37,886 nucleotides of DNA, from the NCBI RefSeq assembly GCF_014490445.1, contig NZ_JACTUZ010000028.1:1-37886 (forward strand), read 5' to 3'. Positions 19,674-32,358 of the stretch are shown here, piece after piece; positions within the stretch are counted from its first letter, which is position 1; each line of letters begins with the position of its first letter. The position numbers and the translations under genes were made by a program. The stretch comes from Pseudoroseomonas ludipueritiae (GTDB taxonomy: Bacteria > Pseudomonadota > Alphaproteobacteria > Acetobacterales > Acetobacteraceae). The notes under the pieces are model-generated. The model saw only the letters and a program-made list of their open reading frames with translations, searched no databases and was not told the origin of the DNA.

Positions 19674-20540
19674 TCAGGCGCGCTTCTTTCTGGCCGGCGT
19701 GGCCTTCCGGGCTGGCGCCTTGCGTGGCGCCGGCTTGCTGGCCGGGGCCTTGCGCGGCGCGCCCTGCTTCAGGCTGTTCAGCAAAGCCGCCATCAGGTCA
19801 ATGACATTGCCACGGTCAGGCTGCTCCTCCGGCTCCGGCTCGGCAGGCTTGCCCTGCTTGCGCGCCTCGATCACCTCGCGCAGCCGCGCCTCGTAGCGGT
19901 CCTCGGTATCGGACGGGTCGAATTCATCCACCTGCCGTTCGATCAACTGGCGGGCGAGTTTCACCATCTCCTTGTCGGGCGCCGCTTTCGGCACATCCTC
20001 GAAGGCGGATTTCGCCGGGCGCAGGTCGCTCTCCTCGTGCAGCGTATGCAGCACCAGCCCCTTGCCCAGGGGAACAATGCCCACCGCCCTTTCCCGCCGG
20101 AACAGCACGAGGCGGGAGAGCGCCATCATGCCGCTTTCCTGCAAGGCATCCCGCAGCACGGCGTAGACATCCGCGCTGTCGTCGTCGTCCGGCACGACGT
20201 AGTAGCTGTTATCGACATACAGCGACCCGACTGAATCCCCCGGCACGAATTTCGCGATGTTCAGCGTGCTGGTGCTTTCCACCCGGGCGCTGTCGAAATC
20301 CTCCTCGGTCAGGATGACATACTCGCCCTTCTCGTATTCGTAGCCGCGCGCGAGGTCGCCGCGCTCCACCTCCTTGCCCGTCTCGGCATCCACCGTCTGG
20401 GTGCGGATGCGGTTGCCGGTCTTGGGGTTGATCAGGTGGAAATGCAGGTTGTTCCGCTCGTGATGCGCGGTCACCAGTGCGATGCGGCAGGAAACCAGCG
20501 CCAGGCGCAGGGTGCCGCGCCAGATCGGGCGTTCGCTCAT
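19674..20540 (-). CDS. ku: Ku protein of non-homologous end joining
   Basis: The 288-residue protein has the bacterial Ku core: the N-terminal beta-barrel segment ([19 protein letters not shown]), then [18 protein letters not shown], and [20 protein letters not shown]. It ends in a Lys/Ala/Pro-rich basic tail, as in Ku proteins that use such tails to hold DNA. Bacterial Ku dimerises on double-strand ends and recruits LigD. Its ATG overlaps the ligD stop (ATGA), so the two are translated together. Confidence 0.96.
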
Positions 20541-23074
20541 GTCTTATCCTTGCTGCGGCGCTTCCTGCCGCCCGGCCGGGGCAGCGGGCGGGCGGCATCG
20601 GCATAGCCGGCCCAGGGGTCAGGGATATCCAGCCGCGCCGGGGCGGTCTCCACGGTGAAGGCCTTGGGGTCCAGCTTCGGGCCCAGTTCCTCCCAGGCCA
20701 GGGGCATGGAGACGGTGGCGCCAGGACGCGCGCGCGGCGACCAAGCGGCCACCGCCGTCGCCGTGCGGTCATTGCGCAGATAGTCGAGGAAGATCTTGCC
20801 CTTCCGCGCGCGCTTGGAGAGCGTGGTGGTGTATTTCTCCGGCGCCGCCTGCGCCATGACGGTGCAGAGCGCCTCGCAGAATACCTTGGCCTCCGGCCAT
20901 CCGGCATCGGGCTTCAGGGGCGCGACCACGTGCAGGCCCTTGCCGCCCGTGGTCTTCACGAAGGCGCCGAGGCCCAGCGCCTCCAATTGCCGCCGCACCT
21001 CCCGAGCCGCCTCGACCACCGCGGCGAAACCCAGTCCCTCATCCGGGTCGATGTCGAAGACCAGCCGGTCCGGCCGCTCGGCATCCCTGGCCAGGGCGCC
21101 GCCGGGGTGGATCTCCAGCACCGCCGATTGCGCCAGGGCCACCAGGGCCTCGGCACTGTCCACGGCCAGGAAAGGTTCCTCCTCGCCCTTCAGCGGCACG
21201 CGCTGGAGCAGGGCGGAAGTGCCGGCGCCGGGGTGGCGTTGCAGGAAGCGCGGTCCTTCGATGCCATCCGGCGCCCGCAGCAGCGCCACCAGCCGGCCGC
21301 CGGCATAATCCAGCAGCTTCGGCGCCACGGTGGCGTAGTACTCGGCCAGTTGGCGCTTCGAGACGCCCTCCTTCGGCCAGAGCAGCTTGTCCGGATGGCT
21401 CAGCCGCACGCCGGCCACGCTGTTGCCGGTGGAAACCACGCGCGGGCGTGTCTCTGGGTTTGGAATGGACGGGTCGTTTTGGCCCGCCAGAGGTCCCGGA
21501 GGGGTCACCGTCTCGGCTGGCTTGTCCTCCCGCAGGCCCTTGAAGGAGGCCTGACGAATGCGGCCTTCCCCGGTCCAGCCGGCGTAATCCACCTCGGCCA
21601 CCAGCTTCGGCTCCACCCATTGGGCGCGGCGGCGGTCGGAAGGGTCGGGCTTGTTGCAGAAGGGCGAGGTGCCGCGCGCCAGTGGCTTCAGCAGCCTCGT
21701 CAGCTCCCGCGTCCGCGCGGCGGAAATGCCGGAGCCGACGCGGCCGAGATACACCAGCCCGCCATCCCGCCAGGCGCCCAGCAGCAGCGTCATATTGCCC
21801 TTGGGGCCGACCCCGTGGCCGCCGATGACGAACTCGTCGTTGCCGCGGCACTTGGTCTTGACCCAGTCCTCGCCCCGCCCGGAACGATAGGGCGCATCCA
21901 GCCGCTTCGAGACCACGCCCTCCAGCCCCACCTGGCAGGCGGAGCGCAGGATGGCCTCACCCGTGGCCTGGAAATGCTCGACATAGGTGATCTCGGGCGG
22001 TGCATCGGCCAGCAATGCCTTCAGGGCCGCCTTGCGGTCCCGCAGGGCCTGCGCACGCCAGTCCTGCCCATTGGCGAAGAGCAGGTCAAAGGCGAAGAAG
22101 CGCAGTTCATCCGTGCGCTTGCGGTCCATGGCGGAGATCAGCGCGGCGAAATCGGGGTGGCCCTCGGCGTCATTGGCCACCAATTCGCCATCCAGCACGC
22201 AATCCGGCAGCTTACCCAGCACGGCAGCGGTTTCCGGGAAGCGATAGGTCCAATCCTGGCCGCTGCGGGTCAGCAGCCTTGCCTTGCCCCCCGCTACATG
22301 CGCCTGCAGGCGATAGCCATCCAGCTTCACCTCATGCGCCCATTCGGCGCCGGACGGTGCCTGGGCGGCGCTGCTGCAAAGCTGCGGCGGAATGAACTCG
22401 CCGGCCTTGGCGGGGGGTTCCGGTGCGGCGGGTTCGCGGCGCGGGGCGCGCTTCTTCGCGGCCTTCCTGGGCTGCGGCTTGGCTGCCGCCTTGCCCGCGA
22501 TCTCCTCCATGGAGCGGCCGGACTGGACGGACGTGGTTTCCGCCTCGATCAGGCTTTCCCCTTCTCCGGGGCGGGCTTCCTCGTCCTTTTCCTTGATCAG
22601 CAGCCATTGCGGCTTGGTCTCGCGTCCGCGCGGCCGCATCTTCACCAGGGTCCAGCCGCCGTGCATCCGTTCCCCATGCAGTTGGAACTTCAGCTTGCCG
22701 GCGGCGAGCGCCCTGCCGGGGTCTTCGTCCAGGCTTTCCCAGGTGCCGCGATCCCACAGCATCACCGTGCCGCCGCCATATTCACCCTGGGGGATGGTGC
22801 CCTCGAATGTGCCGTAATCCAGCGGATGGTCTTCCACCTGCACCGCCAGGCGCTTGTCGGCGGGGTCCAGGCTAGGGCCGCGGGTCACCGCCCAGCTTTT
22901 CAGCGTGCCGTCCAGTTCCAGCCGGAAGTCGAAATGCAGCCGCGTCGCATCGTGCTTCTGCACCACGAAGCTCAGCGCGCCCTTCTTGCGGCGGGTGGCC
23001 TTGCCGCGTGGCTCGGCGGTGCGCGTGAAGTCGCGCTTGGCGTTGTAGCGGTCGAGTGCGCCCTCGGATGGCAT
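20537..23074 (-). CDS. ligD: Multifunctional DNA ligase D
   Basis: The 845-residue protein has three domains in order. The 3'-phosphoesterase domain (about 1-165) has H41, H47, D49, R51 and H83, corresponding to the known catalytic set. The ATP-dependent ligase (about 235-525) has the adenylated Lys250 in EVKLDGYR, then DGELV, EGVVSKR and KTKC. The primase-polymerase (about 550-830) has FDIDPDEG. A Lys/Ala/Pro-rich linker joins the first two domains. The linker between ligase and polymerase is encoded across an orphan copy of the replication-iteron motif (21463-21476). LigD trims, fills and seals ends held by Ku. The start at 23074 gives the normal [16 protein letters not shown]. Confidence 0.96.
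21463..21476 (+). repeat. Orphan iteron-like motif inside ligD
   Basis: GGAATGGACGGGTC matches the motif of the replication origin at about 28-29 kb (GGAAT, four variable bases, then GGGTC). The next bases, GTTTTGGC, also match the copy at 28996-29009. It encodes part of the ligase-polymerase linker (around residues 533-538, read as NDPSIPN). Whether the initiator binds it is unknown. Confidence 0.55.
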
Positions 23075-27912: not shown

Positions 27913-27930
27913 GGCGCCAGCGGCGGAAAC

Positions 27931-27944
27931 GACCCGTTCATTCC
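27931..27944 (-). repeat. Iteron-like motif downstream of the replication gene
   Basis: GACCCGTTCATTCC on the plus strand (minus: GGAATGAACGGGTC), in the short gap between the convergent reductase and replication genes. It has the same 14-bp pattern as the origin repeats. Confidence 0.6.
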
Positions 27945-27949
27945 AACGT

Positions 27950-28927
27950 TCAGGTCGTTTCCGACCCTTCTATTCCGGGTGTCTGCAGGGCGAGCGAACC
28001 CTGCTTCGGCAAGGCATGGACATAGCGGTAGCGGTAGGACTTGGCGCGGCCGCTGCCGGTCTCCTCGCAGGTCCAGGAGGCCAGGCCGCCGGCATTCGTC
28101 ATGTCCTCGAAGGCTTGGCGGCATTCCTCGCGGAATTTCAGGCGCTGGCGCGTGGTCTCGGCCTTGTAGTCACGACCGGCCAGCTCGGCGAGGGTTTCCA
28201 CCGGCACCCAGGTATAGTCCGGCTGGGAATCGATGAAGGGCCAGAAGGCCTTGGCATAGTCCGAGCGCAGCTTGAAATAGGTCTCGCCATCGATGCTGGC
28301 GAGGGTGCGGCTCTCGAACATGTCGCGCACCCATTCGCCATAGGCGACCTTGACCCGGGAATCGAGGGTCACGCCATCCCATTCGATGCGGCCCAGCAGA
28401 TTGTCCGAGTAACCGGCCGCGGCGAGGCGCCCGCTCTGCGTCGCGGCCTCGTATTGCGCGAAGTCGCCCTGGTAGAAGCGGAAGGACACGGAACGCAATT
28501 CTTCAAAGACCCGCAACATGGTGCCGAGGTTGTTCACATGCGCCGTGCGGCCGGTGGCGGCCAGCAGGGCACGCCAGGTCGTCTCGGTATGGTAATAGGG
28601 CAAGGGGCGGGCGCCGTTCTGGGGCGCCATTTCGGTCCGCTTCGCGCGCATGCGGAACAATGCGTAAAGCGCGTCCCGGTGCTGCGAGCCAAGCTCGCGG
28701 CCCCGGACTTCCACCACCGTATGCGGCCGGACGACGTAAAGACGCTGAAAGCCGCTATCGGTGATCAGCCCTTTCTTGCGCGGGGCAAAGGCAGAAGTCC
28801 GTGCGAGACGGGAAGGCATGACGGTTGGCGCCTTGCGGCCACGGCGATTGGCCTTGGCGCGCTCAAAGCGTTCCAGGCGCTTCCGCTCGGCTTCCGTCAG
28901 CTCCTGGCTGCCTGTATTCGTCACCAC
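27950..28927 (-). CDS. Plasmid-type replication initiator protein (RepA-like)
   Basis: The 325-residue protein has a basic N-terminus (KANRRGRKAPTVMPSRLAR), then GLITDSGFQRLYVVRPHTVV and GRELGSQHRDALYALFRM, and two predicted winged-helix regions. It resembles initiators annotated as plasmid replication proteins in Acetobacteraceae and relatives. The clearest support is context: it is embedded in iteron repeats with an AT-rich segment and a DnaA-box-like site upstream. The GTG start at 28927 has AAGGG upstream that is part of an iteron copy, so the protein may repress its own synthesis. A TAGTCT (plus-strand 28961-28966) could be its -10. A further repeat copy lies in its last codons. No parA/parB is in the window. 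Confidence 0.85.
   Translation of the reverse strand: MVTNTGSQELTEAERKRLERFERAKANRRGRKAPTVMPSRLARTSAFAPRKKGLITDSGFQRLYVVRPHTVVEVRGRELGSQHRDALYALFRMRAKRTEMAPQNGARPLPYYHTETTWRALLAATGRTAHVNNLGTMLRVFEELRSVSFRFYQGDFAQYEAATQSGRLAAAGYSDNLLGRIEWDGVTLDSRVKVAYGEWVRDMFESRTLASIDGETYFKLRSDYAKAFWPFIDSQPDYTWVPVETLAELAGRDYKAETTRQRLKFREECRQAFEDMTNAGGLASWTCEETGSGRAKSYRYRYVHALPKQGSLALQTPGIEGSETT
27963..27976 (-). repeat. Iteron-like motif within the 3' end of the replication gene
   Basis: GACCCTTCTATTCC on the plus strand encodes the last residues (GIEGS) of the initiator. With 27931-27944 it forms a pair 32 bp apart in the same direction. Confidence 0.6.
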
Positions 28928-28933
28928 AATATC

Positions 28934-28947
28934 GACCCTTTGATTCC
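28934..28947 (-). repeat. Iteron overlapping the ribosome site of the replication gene
   Basis: GACCCTTTGATTCC on the plus strand (minus: GGAATCAAAGGGTC) ends 6 bases before the GTG start. Its AAAGGG is the best available ribosome-binding sequence, which suggests autoregulation. Confidence 0.65.
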
Positions 28948-28995
28948 GGCGGGTGCAGGCAGACTAGCACCGCGAGACAGCTTTCGCATCATCAG

Positions 28996-29009
28996 GGAAT
29001 CAAGGGGTC
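28996..29009 (+). repeat. Iteron-like motif upstream of the replication gene
   Basis: GGAATCAAGGGGTC, followed by GTTTTGGC. It points opposite to the copy at the ribosome site and lies upstream of the likely promoter. The extended match is shared with the orphan copy in ligD. Confidence 0.65.
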
Positions 29010-29068
29010 GTTTTGGCGGCTGCGGTCCGGCCCCGGCCCCCGCCACGGTGGATGAGACGGGGGAGAAG

Positions 29069-29145
29069 TGAAGCAAGGGGTCGGATTTGGGAATGGCGGG
29101 GTCGGGTTTGGGAGAGAAGAGGTCGGAAACGGGAAGGAAGGGGTC
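29069..29145 (+). repeat. Four tandem iterons with exact 21-bp period
   Basis: Four 14-bp copies end at 29082, 29103, 29124 and 29145: TGAAGCAAGGGGTC, GGAATGGCGGGGTC, GGAGAGAAGAGGTC and GGAAGGAAGGGGTC. The GGTC end is constant and the first three share a following G-G/G-A/G-type spacer (GGATTTG, GGGTTTG, GGAAACG). A spacing of two helical turns places all copies on one face of the helix, as in initiator-binding arrays. Confidence 0.82.
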
Positions 29146-29232
29146 ACTAGGCTGAATTAACTATCTGATTTTAGCCGGTTTTTCTCGGAATAGACTCTTC
29201 TAATAGACTCTGAATCAGACACTGATTGACCG
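29146..29232. other. AT-rich segment with short repeats (probable unwinding element)
   Basis: This segment next to the tandem iterons is clearly AT-rich against its GC-rich surroundings. It contains two copies of AATAGACTCT (29189-29198, 29202-29211, 13 bp apart). CTGATT occurs at 29165-29170 and 29222-29227, the latter forming a dyad with AATCAG at 29213-29218. Position and composition suit the duplex-unwinding element of an iteron origin. Confidence 0.6.
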
Positions 29233-29248
29233 GTCCTGTGGGCTTTTT

Positions 29249-29257
29249 CGTGGATAA
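29249..29257 (-). promoter_or_regulatory. DnaA-box-like 9-mer at the origin
   Basis: Minus-strand TTATCCACG differs from the DnaA box TTATCCACA at one base. It sits about 17 bp beyond the AT-rich segment. A single box beside iterons is common in plasmid origins. Confidence 0.5.
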
Positions 29258-29312
29258 AGCCGAAGCCGGAGGTCGCCAGAGCCCGCAGAGCCTCGCCGAA
29301 CCTCCGAATTGC

Positions 29313-29463
29313 GACCCCTTGATTCCCGTTTCGGCGCGACTCCGGCGCTTTTGGCCTCGATGGAGGCATCGAAAAGCGACCCCTTCATTCCGCCGGCCCC
29401 GCCAGCCGAGCGGCCAGAAAGGTCGGGGGCGGAATCGCCGCCGCAAAGCGACCCTTCCATTCC
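29313..29463 (-). repeat. Three dispersed iteron motifs beyond the AT-rich segment
   Basis: GACCCCTTGATTCC (29313-29326), GACCCCTTCATTCC (29378-29391) and GACCCTTCCATTCC (29450-29463) all run opposite to the tandem array. Their start spacings are 65 and 72 bp. Each is preceded by GC or AGC. These are the best matches to a shared consensus GACCCCTT-x-ATTCC. Confidence 0.7.
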
Positions 29464-29480
29464 GGCTCGCAGGATCTTGA

Positions 29481-29496
29481 GGTCAATGCATTGACC
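29481..29496. promoter_or_regulatory. Perfect 16-bp palindrome, probable operator
   Basis: GGTCAATGCATTGACC is an exact palindrome covering the -35 element of the candidate promoter for the amidohydrolase gene. Its size and symmetry suit a dimeric repressor. No regulator gene is adjacent. Confidence 0.55.
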
Positions 29497-29519
29497 CACC
29501 CCGGCCGCCGGATCACTGT
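29491..29519 (+). promoter_or_regulatory. Candidate promoter for the M20 amidohydrolase operon
   Basis: TTGACC (29491-29496) and CACTGT (29514-29519) are 17 bp apart, ahead of the start at 29554. The -35 matches well and the -10 poorly, as would suit an activated or repressed promoter. Confidence 0.35.
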
Positions 29520-29553
29520 GCGCAACATCCCGCAAGCCTAAGAGGTACCCGTG

Positions 29554-30750
29554 ATGCGGCAGAGCATGCTTGAGGCGATCAAAGAGTTCGAACCGGAACT
29601 CGTCGCCATCCGGCGCGATATCCATGAGCACCCCGAAACCCGTTTCGAGGAGGTGCGCACCGCCGCTCTGGTCGCCAGCAAGCTGCGCGAATGGGGTCTG
29701 ACGGTGGAGGAAGGCATCGGCAAGACCGGCGTGGTCGGCACCCTGCAGGGGCGCCGGCCGGGCCAGCGCGCCATTGGGCTGCGGGCCGACATGGATGCGC
29801 TCTTCATCCAGGAGGAAAATGACTTTCCGCATGCCTCCAAGGTGCCGGGCAAGATGCATGCCTGCGGCCATGACGGGCATACGACCATGCTGCTAGGCGC
29901 CGCCAAGTACCTGGCGCGCAACCCCGATTTCGCCGGCACGGTGCATTTCATCTTCCAGCCGGCCGAGGAGGCCGGCACCGGCGCCGCCGCCATGATCGCC
30001 GACGGGCTCTTCGACCGCTTCCCGGTGGATGCGGTCTACGGCATGCACAATACCCCCGGCCTGCCGGTGGGGCAGTTCGCCACCCGTCCCGGGCCGATCT
30101 TGGCCGGCGCCGACTTCTGGGGCGTCACCTTCACCGGCACCGGTGGCCATGGCGGCTCCGCGCCGCATCTGGCGACCGATGTCACGGTGGTGCTGGGCCA
30201 TTTCCTGCTGGCGGTGCATACCATCCTGCCGCGCAACCTGAAGCCGACCGAACCGGCAGCCCTTTCCGTCGGCCATGTCTCCGGCGGCACCTATGGTTCG
30301 CCCAACGTGATGCCGGCGCGCGTCGTGGTGCGCGGCACCGCGCGCTATTTCCGCCCCGAGGCGCAGGCGGTGATCCGCCAGCGGCTGGAGGAACTGGCCA
30401 GGACCCTCGCGGCCGCGCATGGCTGCGAGGCCGAGCTGACCTACGAGGCGCTTTGCCCGCCCACCGTGAATGCGCCGGAGAAGGTGCCGGTGGCCAATGC
30501 CGCCGCCGCCGCGCTGGTGGGCCAGCAGGCGGTGGGGGACTTCCCGATGAGCACGGGCGGCGAGGATTTCGCCTTCATGCTGCAGCAGAAGCCCGGCGTG
30601 TTCATGCGTATCGGCAATGGCGCCAATGCCGATGGCAGCTTCCACAATGTCCACACGCCGAAATATGACTTCAACGACGATACCCTGGCCCTTGGAGCCG
30701 CCTATTGGGCGAGCCTGGTGCAGCAGGAACTGAGCCTGGAAGACCGATGA
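29554..30750 (+). CDS. M20 family N-acyl-amino-acid amidohydrolase (hippurate hydrolase-like)
   Basis: The 398-residue metallo-amidohydrolase belongs to the M20D group. Metal-site motifs are present: RADMDAL, HACGHDGHTTMLLG (Cys and His ligands), the catalytic Glu-Glu in FQPAEEAGTG, GMHNTPG, and the C-terminal STGGEDFAFMLQ and FHNVHTPKYDFND. A central lid/dimer domain separates the halves. It releases amino acids from N-acyl forms in the cytoplasm. AGAGG at 29541-29545 favours the ATG at 29554, although GTG at 29551 is also possible. The next gene starts inside its stop codon (ATGA), so hydrolase and peptide-type binding protein are coupled. Confidence 0.92.
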   Translation: MRQSMLEAIKEFEPELVAIRRDIHEHPETRFEEVRTAALVASKLREWGLTVEEGIGKTGVVGTLQGRRPGQRAIGLRADMDALFIQEENDFPHASKVPGKMHACGHDGHTTMLLGAAKYLARNPDFAGTVHFIFQPAEEAGTGAAAMIADGLFDRFPVDAVYGMHNTPGLPVGQFATRPGPILAGADFWGVTFTGTGGHGGSAPHLATDVTVVLGHFLLAVHTILPRNLKPTEPAALSVGHVSGGTYGSPNVMPARVVVRGTARYFRPEAQAVIRQRLEELARTLAAAHGCEAELTYEALCPPTVNAPEKVPVANAAAAALVGQQAVGDFPMSTGGEDFAFMLQQKPGVFMRIGNGANADGSFHNVHTPKYDFNDDTLALGAAYWASLVQQELSLEDR

Positions 30751-32333: not shown

Positions 32334-32358
32334 AGCGACCCGTCTCTTCCGCTCAAAA

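Follow-up and report, generated by a model that had tools for sequence, protein, structure and literature searches.

Organization of the locus

The window, that is, the whole stretch of DNA analysed, comprises all 37,886 bp of contig C201 (NZ_JACTUZ010000028.1) from a 5.35-Mb draft genome. Its candidate initiator gene, rep, lies on the minus strand (27950–28927) and encodes a 325-aa protein of an unnamed family from a GTG start codon. Four short repeats (iterons) are arrayed on the plus strand upstream of rep, at 29069–29083 (the degenerate copy nearest rep), 29090–29104, 29111–29125 (three mismatches) and 29132–29146. An earlier sequence-only reading had placed four 14-bp motifs here, ending at 29082, 29103, 29124 and 29145, which is exactly where they end, and the 21-bp spacing was recovered by Tandem Repeats Finder as a 21-bp period at 29075–29145. 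The motifs of that reading are thus real and exact, whereas its consensus is better given as the 15-bp GGAATNRANGGGTCG, from which the four array copies of the window differ at 1–3 positions. The three inverted copies that it listed are likewise present, as perfect spaced iterons on the minus strand at 29312–29326, 29377–29391 and 29449–29463.

Further sites extend that list. A perfect solitary iteron containing GAATC lies between the array and rep (28996–29010, plus strand), and another perfect copy stands just before the predicted rep start (28933–28947, minus strand), where it is a possible autorepression operator of rep. Two more perfect copies on the minus strand mark the other end of the gene, one within the last codons (27962–27976) and one directly after them (27930–27944). 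The latter overlaps a predicted RNA hairpin at 27924–27963 (z −2.22; 4 of 200 shuffles fold equally well), a structure that may function in termination or as an RNA control element. A distal iteron with one mismatch is found at 32336–32350 (minus strand) in the 3′ end of a solute-binding-protein gene. Finally, a perfect copy at 21462–21476 (plus strand) falls in a variable linker inside a LigD reading frame (20537–23074); since it is located in this frame and is absent from the related plasmids p1318-4 and p546-1, it was set aside as possibly a chance occurrence. LigD and Ku end-joining genes are also found a few kb from the origin on both of these plasmids.

Perfect copies of GGAATNRANGGGTCG number eight in the entire draft genome, every one of them on C201, and seven surround rep. 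When up to three mismatches are allowed, 11 sites start within 27915–29550, where 200 mononucleotide shuffles gave 0.8 on average and never more than 4, and the rest of the window holds 26 further scattered sites, about 17 being expected by simple scaling of the shuffle mean.

Next to the array, as the sequence-only reading had it, lies an AT-rich block (29148–29227), which is the most AT-rich of all 80-bp stretches of the contig and a candidate unwinding element. The corresponding blocks of p1318-4 and p546-1 rank among the highest 0.04% and 0.11% of all 80-bp stretches, below the record maximum. The block is largely conserved and has its own repeats, two direct copies of AATAGACTCT on the plus strand (29189–29198 and 29202–29211) that carry GANTC sites. 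It is followed by a DnaA-like box, TTATCCACG, identified by sequence match on the minus strand at 29249–29257, in agreement with the DnaA-box-like motif reported before. No sigma-70-type promoter was matched within 28900–29560.

A layout shared by seven loci

The layout of the window was compared with that of six close relatives. Together with the window, these make up seven close loci, namely the window, four genome contigs (L002–L005) and the plasmids p1318-4 (L015) and p546-1 (L016). In their upstream DNA, alignment is largely confined to the iterons, the AT block and the ends of the adjacent coding sequences. Each of the seven has three spaced sites that point one way and four that point the other way at 21-bp intervals, together with single sites at about −83 and immediately ahead of the predicted rep start and a pair near the rep 3′ end; the pair of L004 lies ~70–100 bp past the gene, with its second member inverted. 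L003 and L004 each have one additional site beside the array. A distal site 3.37–3.52 kb upstream of rep is also common to all seven (perfect in three, one mismatch in four), and further one-mismatch sites occur elsewhere in L003 (two) and L004 (one). A DnaA-like box with at most one mismatch from TTATCCACA is found at −324 to −333 in six of the seven loci, L016 (p546-1) being the sole exception without it.

The quality of the sites is conserved along with their positions. None of the 28 array copies (four in each of seven loci) is perfect, each having 1–3 mismatches, and the copy nearest rep starts with TGAA in 7/7 loci. All 14 copies of the two solitary sites upstream of rep, one ahead of its start and one at about −83 that contains GAATC in every locus, are perfect. 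Among the spaced sites, the farthest is perfect in 7/7, the middle one in 1/7 and the nearest in 5/7. Such a conserved weak array combined with strong control sites would fit an order in which the sites for repression or titration fill first and those for initiation last.

The probable initiator gene and its family

The start codon of rep is uncertain, as the record of p1318-4 begins its copy (a "hypothetical protein" at 300,627–301,496) 36 codons later, though the residues upstream of that annotated start are conserved across the family. The gene is strongly conserved, with dN/dS values of 0.018–0.031 in six of six comparisons.

The 325-aa protein matched no Pfam or NCBIfam family, and a search of 15 family members at E values up to 5 returned four stray matches only, each to a single member. 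PHROGs gave no significant match for four proteins, PDB gave none to Rep, phage records contained no match to the family, and in viral contigs searched with two peptide patterns, 0 of 47 stretches were confirmed. Comparison of the family profile with RPA (PF10134), RepC and Rep_3 (PF01051) also yielded no significant match, the alignments compared being shallow; as a yardstick, RPA with Rep_3 reached a P of 0.0009. A Rep_3-like winged-helix pattern appears plausible by eye in the C-terminal half of Rep, but the statistics give it no support: the C-terminal domain scored 10.8 against Rep_3, whereas 60 column shuffles averaged 11.5. Structure prediction gave a poor model (mean pLDDT 44.7), in which only residues 11–20 and 241–300 average at least 65 per ten-residue block.

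Relatives of Rep were detected by tblastn on 19 of 72,556 plasmid records, where 18 are annotated as "hypothetical protein" and one is unannotated. The records belong to Roseomonas (9), Methylorubrum (5), Methylobacterium (3), Skermanella (1) and Aureimonas (1), and a search from the distant member of strain AM1 again gave 19 records of the same genera. The family is uncommon in the sampled genomes, occurring in 8 of 150 from the same bacterial family and 3 of 385 from the class, with the own genome counted in both. In MOB-suite typing, pAU20f falls into rep_cluster_61 and the AM1 megaplasmid into rep_cluster_56, so a member of the Rep family may already be present, unnamed, in the typing database. 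No description of this replicon was found in a literature search of titles and the beginnings of abstracts, which mostly left subscription papers aside, and in the available part of the AM1 and DM4 genome paper (PMC2680597), p2META1, p2METDI and the megaplasmid appear without a named initiator. Rep represents a probable initiator family without a name in the libraries searched and without a description found.

Replicon context and other initiators

The sequence-only reading had described the region as chromosome-like, which holds for its composition but probably not for its location. A 22-kb part of the window (15.9–37.9 kb) is collinear with 289–310 kb of p1318-4 (320 kb; NZ_CP061095.1) and with 416–437 kb of p546-1 (441 kb). 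Judged by this collinearity of a draft contig, C201 more likely belongs to a separate replicon, a large plasmid or chromid, than to the main chromosome. On p1318-4, the chromosome-type genes rpoD, hemA, ftsH, fbaA and NAD synthase are present, which suggests a chromid.

Ten of the 19 plasmid records with relatives were tested for other initiators by profile. RPA and RP-C were absent from all ten and Rep_3 from nine, the AM1 megaplasmid having one Rep_3 gene. The whole annotation of p1318-4 includes ParA and ParB but no gene named as an initiator. Its annotation table is incomplete, and 68 ORFs of at least 90 aa were listed in 12 chosen gaps; of the 41 that reach 120 aa, 38 were searched in Pfam, and they included transposases, a transporter and a PLP-enzyme but no initiator. 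The annotations of p2META1 and pAU20f likewise contain no other gene named as an initiator. These negatives refer to gene names and profile matches for p1318-4, p2META1 and pAU20f, and to the RPA, RP-C and Rep_3 profiles for p546-1. A RepABC system was considered for p1318-4 and p546-1, both of whose records start with a long ParA, and was dropped, as RP-C is lacking and p1318-4 has ParA and ParB alone there.

In the own genome, the single RP-C match lies on C257 and not on the window contig, and RPA too is found outside the window contig. In four of four genomes (G000:C257, G001:C121, G002:C50 and G003:C49), an RPA match lies within ~0.5 kb of the RP-C match, placing two initiator families side by side, and in the three genomes tested a ParA match follows 1.1–1.7 kb beyond the pair.

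Two-arc GC-skew fits located the origin of p1318-4 at a distance of 4.6 kb from rep and that of p546-1 at 2.8 kb, with 0 of 200 shuffles as good; the 90% intervals extend ~27–32 kb either side on p1318-4 and ~19 kb on p546-1, and both take in parAB, which is ~19 kb (69–2361) and 13 kb from rep, respectively. On the AM1 megaplasmid, the skew origin is 79 kb from rep within an interval of hundreds of kb. Among six smaller plasmids, only that of pAU20f falls within 2 kb of rep, yet rep lies just outside the interval, and it is far from rep on p2METDI, p2META1, pMRE25, pSR-4 and pSKB0092-3. Given this disagreement of the smaller plasmids and the AM1 megaplasmid, the skew supports the origin for the close relatives p1318-4 and p546-1 only.

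A variable iteron code

Family iterons were sought both by an unseeded repeat search and by a search seeded with GGAA. The clustered sites of the relatives keep GGAA and differ in the second half, with the forms GGAATnRAnGGGTC in the window clade, Skermanella and L029; GGAATnnAnGGAGCA in R. mucosa AD1, L028 and L030; GGAATCGCGCGGG in pSKB0092-3; GGAAnnnCGGCCCCAAATTT in p2META1 and pMRE25; GGAAnnGCAGCCCCACGAA in the AM1 megaplasmid; GGAAnnGCAGCCTACC in Aureimonas; GGAATCGCTGCCGAG in L033; and GGAAnnnnGCTCATCC in L181. As a control, all 256 tetramers served as seeds, with 30 dinucleotide shuffles per locus. In 15 loci, GGAA was unbeaten by other seeds in 11 and beaten in L016, L018, L019 and L020; it scored above all 30 shuffles in 14, and in L018 merely equalled them. 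In a further set of nine loci, it was unbeaten in three (L030, L033 and L181) and beaten in six, including L027 and L028, for which the better seeds include GGGA, overlapping the same sites. The gene of L029 was misplaced in both control runs, and L020, L031 and L032 are weak cases with only about three copies. The division of the iterons into a constant and a variable half would be in keeping with two DNA-reading domains in the protein.

The member on the AM1 megaplasmid (L022; NC_012811.1, 371729–372769) has clustered iterons and coincides with the densest GANTC stretch of that replicon. It is a candidate origin of the 1.26-Mb megaplasmid, for which the Rep_3 gene at 725 kb competes.

GANTC sites at the probable origin

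Eight GANTC sites, the target of CcrM-type methylases, start within the upstream region at 28942, 28997, 29193, 29206, 29212, 29321, 29338 and 29432 (28942–29436 in all). This count of 8 in 536 bp, with origin limits that were set after the sites had been seen, equals the record maximum, against a contig mean of 0.59 per window. The record maximum is equalled at the origin of p1318-4 (9 in 516 bp), p546-1 (6 in 511 bp) and the AM1 megaplasmid (12 in 1,149 bp) as well; the count at pSR-4 is high but below the maximum (5 in 266 bp), and at p2META1 it is not raised (1 in 201 bp). The excess comes partly from GGAATC in the iterons, and 31 of 55 sites over the seven loci remain after iteron masking. 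Five control palindromes were counted on the same three large plasmids; two of them, AGNCT and TCNGA, were raised as well, though less strongly.

CcrM sites within the replicative iterons, in the manner of RctB, were considered and rejected, as the iterons with GANTC are mostly solitary ones. In the array, GANTC is present in 1 of 28 copies (in L003), which gives no support to a mechanism copied directly from RctB. A cell-cycle role through the GANTC of the unwinding block and the strong sites is possible. The genome has one RAMA-domain gene, and among 14 control genomes RAMA matched only Caulobacter. This is in line with a CcrM-type methylase, CcrM being a RAMA-domain protein.

Proposed function and alternative explanations

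With high probability, as far as sequence can tell, the locus comprises the origin and the initiator gene of a Roseomonas-like bacterium's large plasmid or chromid, which replicates in an iteron-controlled theta mode through Rep. The earlier proposal of an iteron-type origin beside its initiator is borne out by the layout common to 7/7 loci, the occurrence of relatives on plasmids, the lack of a rival initiator among those sought on p1318-4, p2META1 and pAU20f, and the nearby skew origins of p1318-4 and p546-1 with their wide intervals; the origin itself is very likely functional. In the proposed mechanism, Rep would bind the 15-bp sites, and its loading on the four phased degenerate copies, together with DnaA at the adjoining box, would open the AT block for theta replication. 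The strong solitary site before rep would repress the gene, and those near its 3′ end, those in the flank and the distal one at 3.4 kb would titrate or pair Rep. The weak array would then fill only once Rep is plentiful, with the solitary sites acting as the control.

An alternative is a once-active plasmid origin that is now carried passively on a larger replicon starting elsewhere. The presence of RPA and RP-C replicon genes on other contigs of the own genome, the Rep_3 gene that accompanies the family member on the AM1 megaplasmid and the inability of GC skew to separate rep from parAB are all compatible with it. Against it stand the dN/dS of 0.018–0.031, the common site layout of the seven loci and the lack of any other annotated or profile-matched initiator on p1318-4. 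This explanation is improbable, though it is the strongest of the alternatives.

Rep might instead be a transcription regulator and the sites its operators; their positions, ahead of the rep start as well as at the 3′ ends of genes, and a protein without a match to any Rep family would allow this. The 21-bp phasing of the array beside an AT block and a DnaA-like box speaks against such a role, as do the plasmid linkage of the relatives and the small plasmids p2META1 and pAU20f, which have no other annotated initiator, so that a mere regulator is very unlikely. Slightly less credible still is a partition function, with the repeats forming a centromere to which a ParB-like or ribbon-helix-helix protein binds. 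ParA and ribbon-helix-helix genes do precede rep on three small plasmids (p2METDI, p2META1 and pMRE25), whereas no par gene is annotated beside rep in L015 or L016, the parAB genes of p1318-4 are far from it, and sites also occur at the rep 3′ end.

With the locus taken as an active iteron origin, a wider proposal can be put forward tentatively, as one that is more doubtful than probable. An undescribed initiator family may run the iteron origins of chromid-size alphaproteobacterial replicons, perhaps including the AM1 megaplasmid; with the GGAA half of the iteron fixed and the other half re-coded, many compatible replicons could arise, and firing may be tied to CcrM, the cell-cycle methylase, via the GANTC sites that the unwinding block and the strong control iterons contain.

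The interpretation would provide an identity and a defined origin for plasmids of up to several hundred kb whose likely replication gene is annotated as a "hypothetical protein", and it proposes an origin for the AM1 megaplasmid. Compatibility groups are predicted by the iteron code, in which GGAA is fixed and the second half varies, and vectors for use in Roseomonas and methylotrophs could follow. Beyond Vibrio, the locus may also be an example of an iteron origin coupled to an adenine-methylation clock.

Comparison with known systems

Iteron-controlled theta plasmids of the pSC101, F, P1 and RK2 type combine phased iterons, an AT-rich block, a DnaA box, an adjacent initiator gene and an operator-like site. 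The present locus resembles them in its phased iterons, AT block, DnaA-like box, adjacent rep, operator-like site and extra sites at the rep end. It differs in that its initiator belongs to no Pfam or NCBIfam family, its array copies are consistently weaker than the solitary ones near rep and one site lies 3.4 kb off. RPA (PF10134) and Rep_3 (PF01051) are plasmid initiators of similar size to Rep, in which a winged-helix C-terminal half is plausible by eye; no significant profile match connects Rep to either.

As far as the available part of one account goes (PMC6090056), chromosome 2 of Vibrio cholerae, with RctB and ori2, is similar in being a secondary replicon with iterons, an AT-rich region, one DnaA site, distant sites and abundant adenine-methylation sites. 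In ori2-min, each 12-mer carries the methylation site GATC (PMC6090056), whereas GANTC occurs here in a single one of the 28 array copies but in several solitary sites. The same partial source describes repABC origins as GANTC-rich (PMC6090056), and the present locus is like the repABC replicons in this respect and in its association with large alphaproteobacterial plasmids. It is unlike them in the absence of RP-C from the ten plasmid records tested, in the presence of iterons and in having its origin beside rep.
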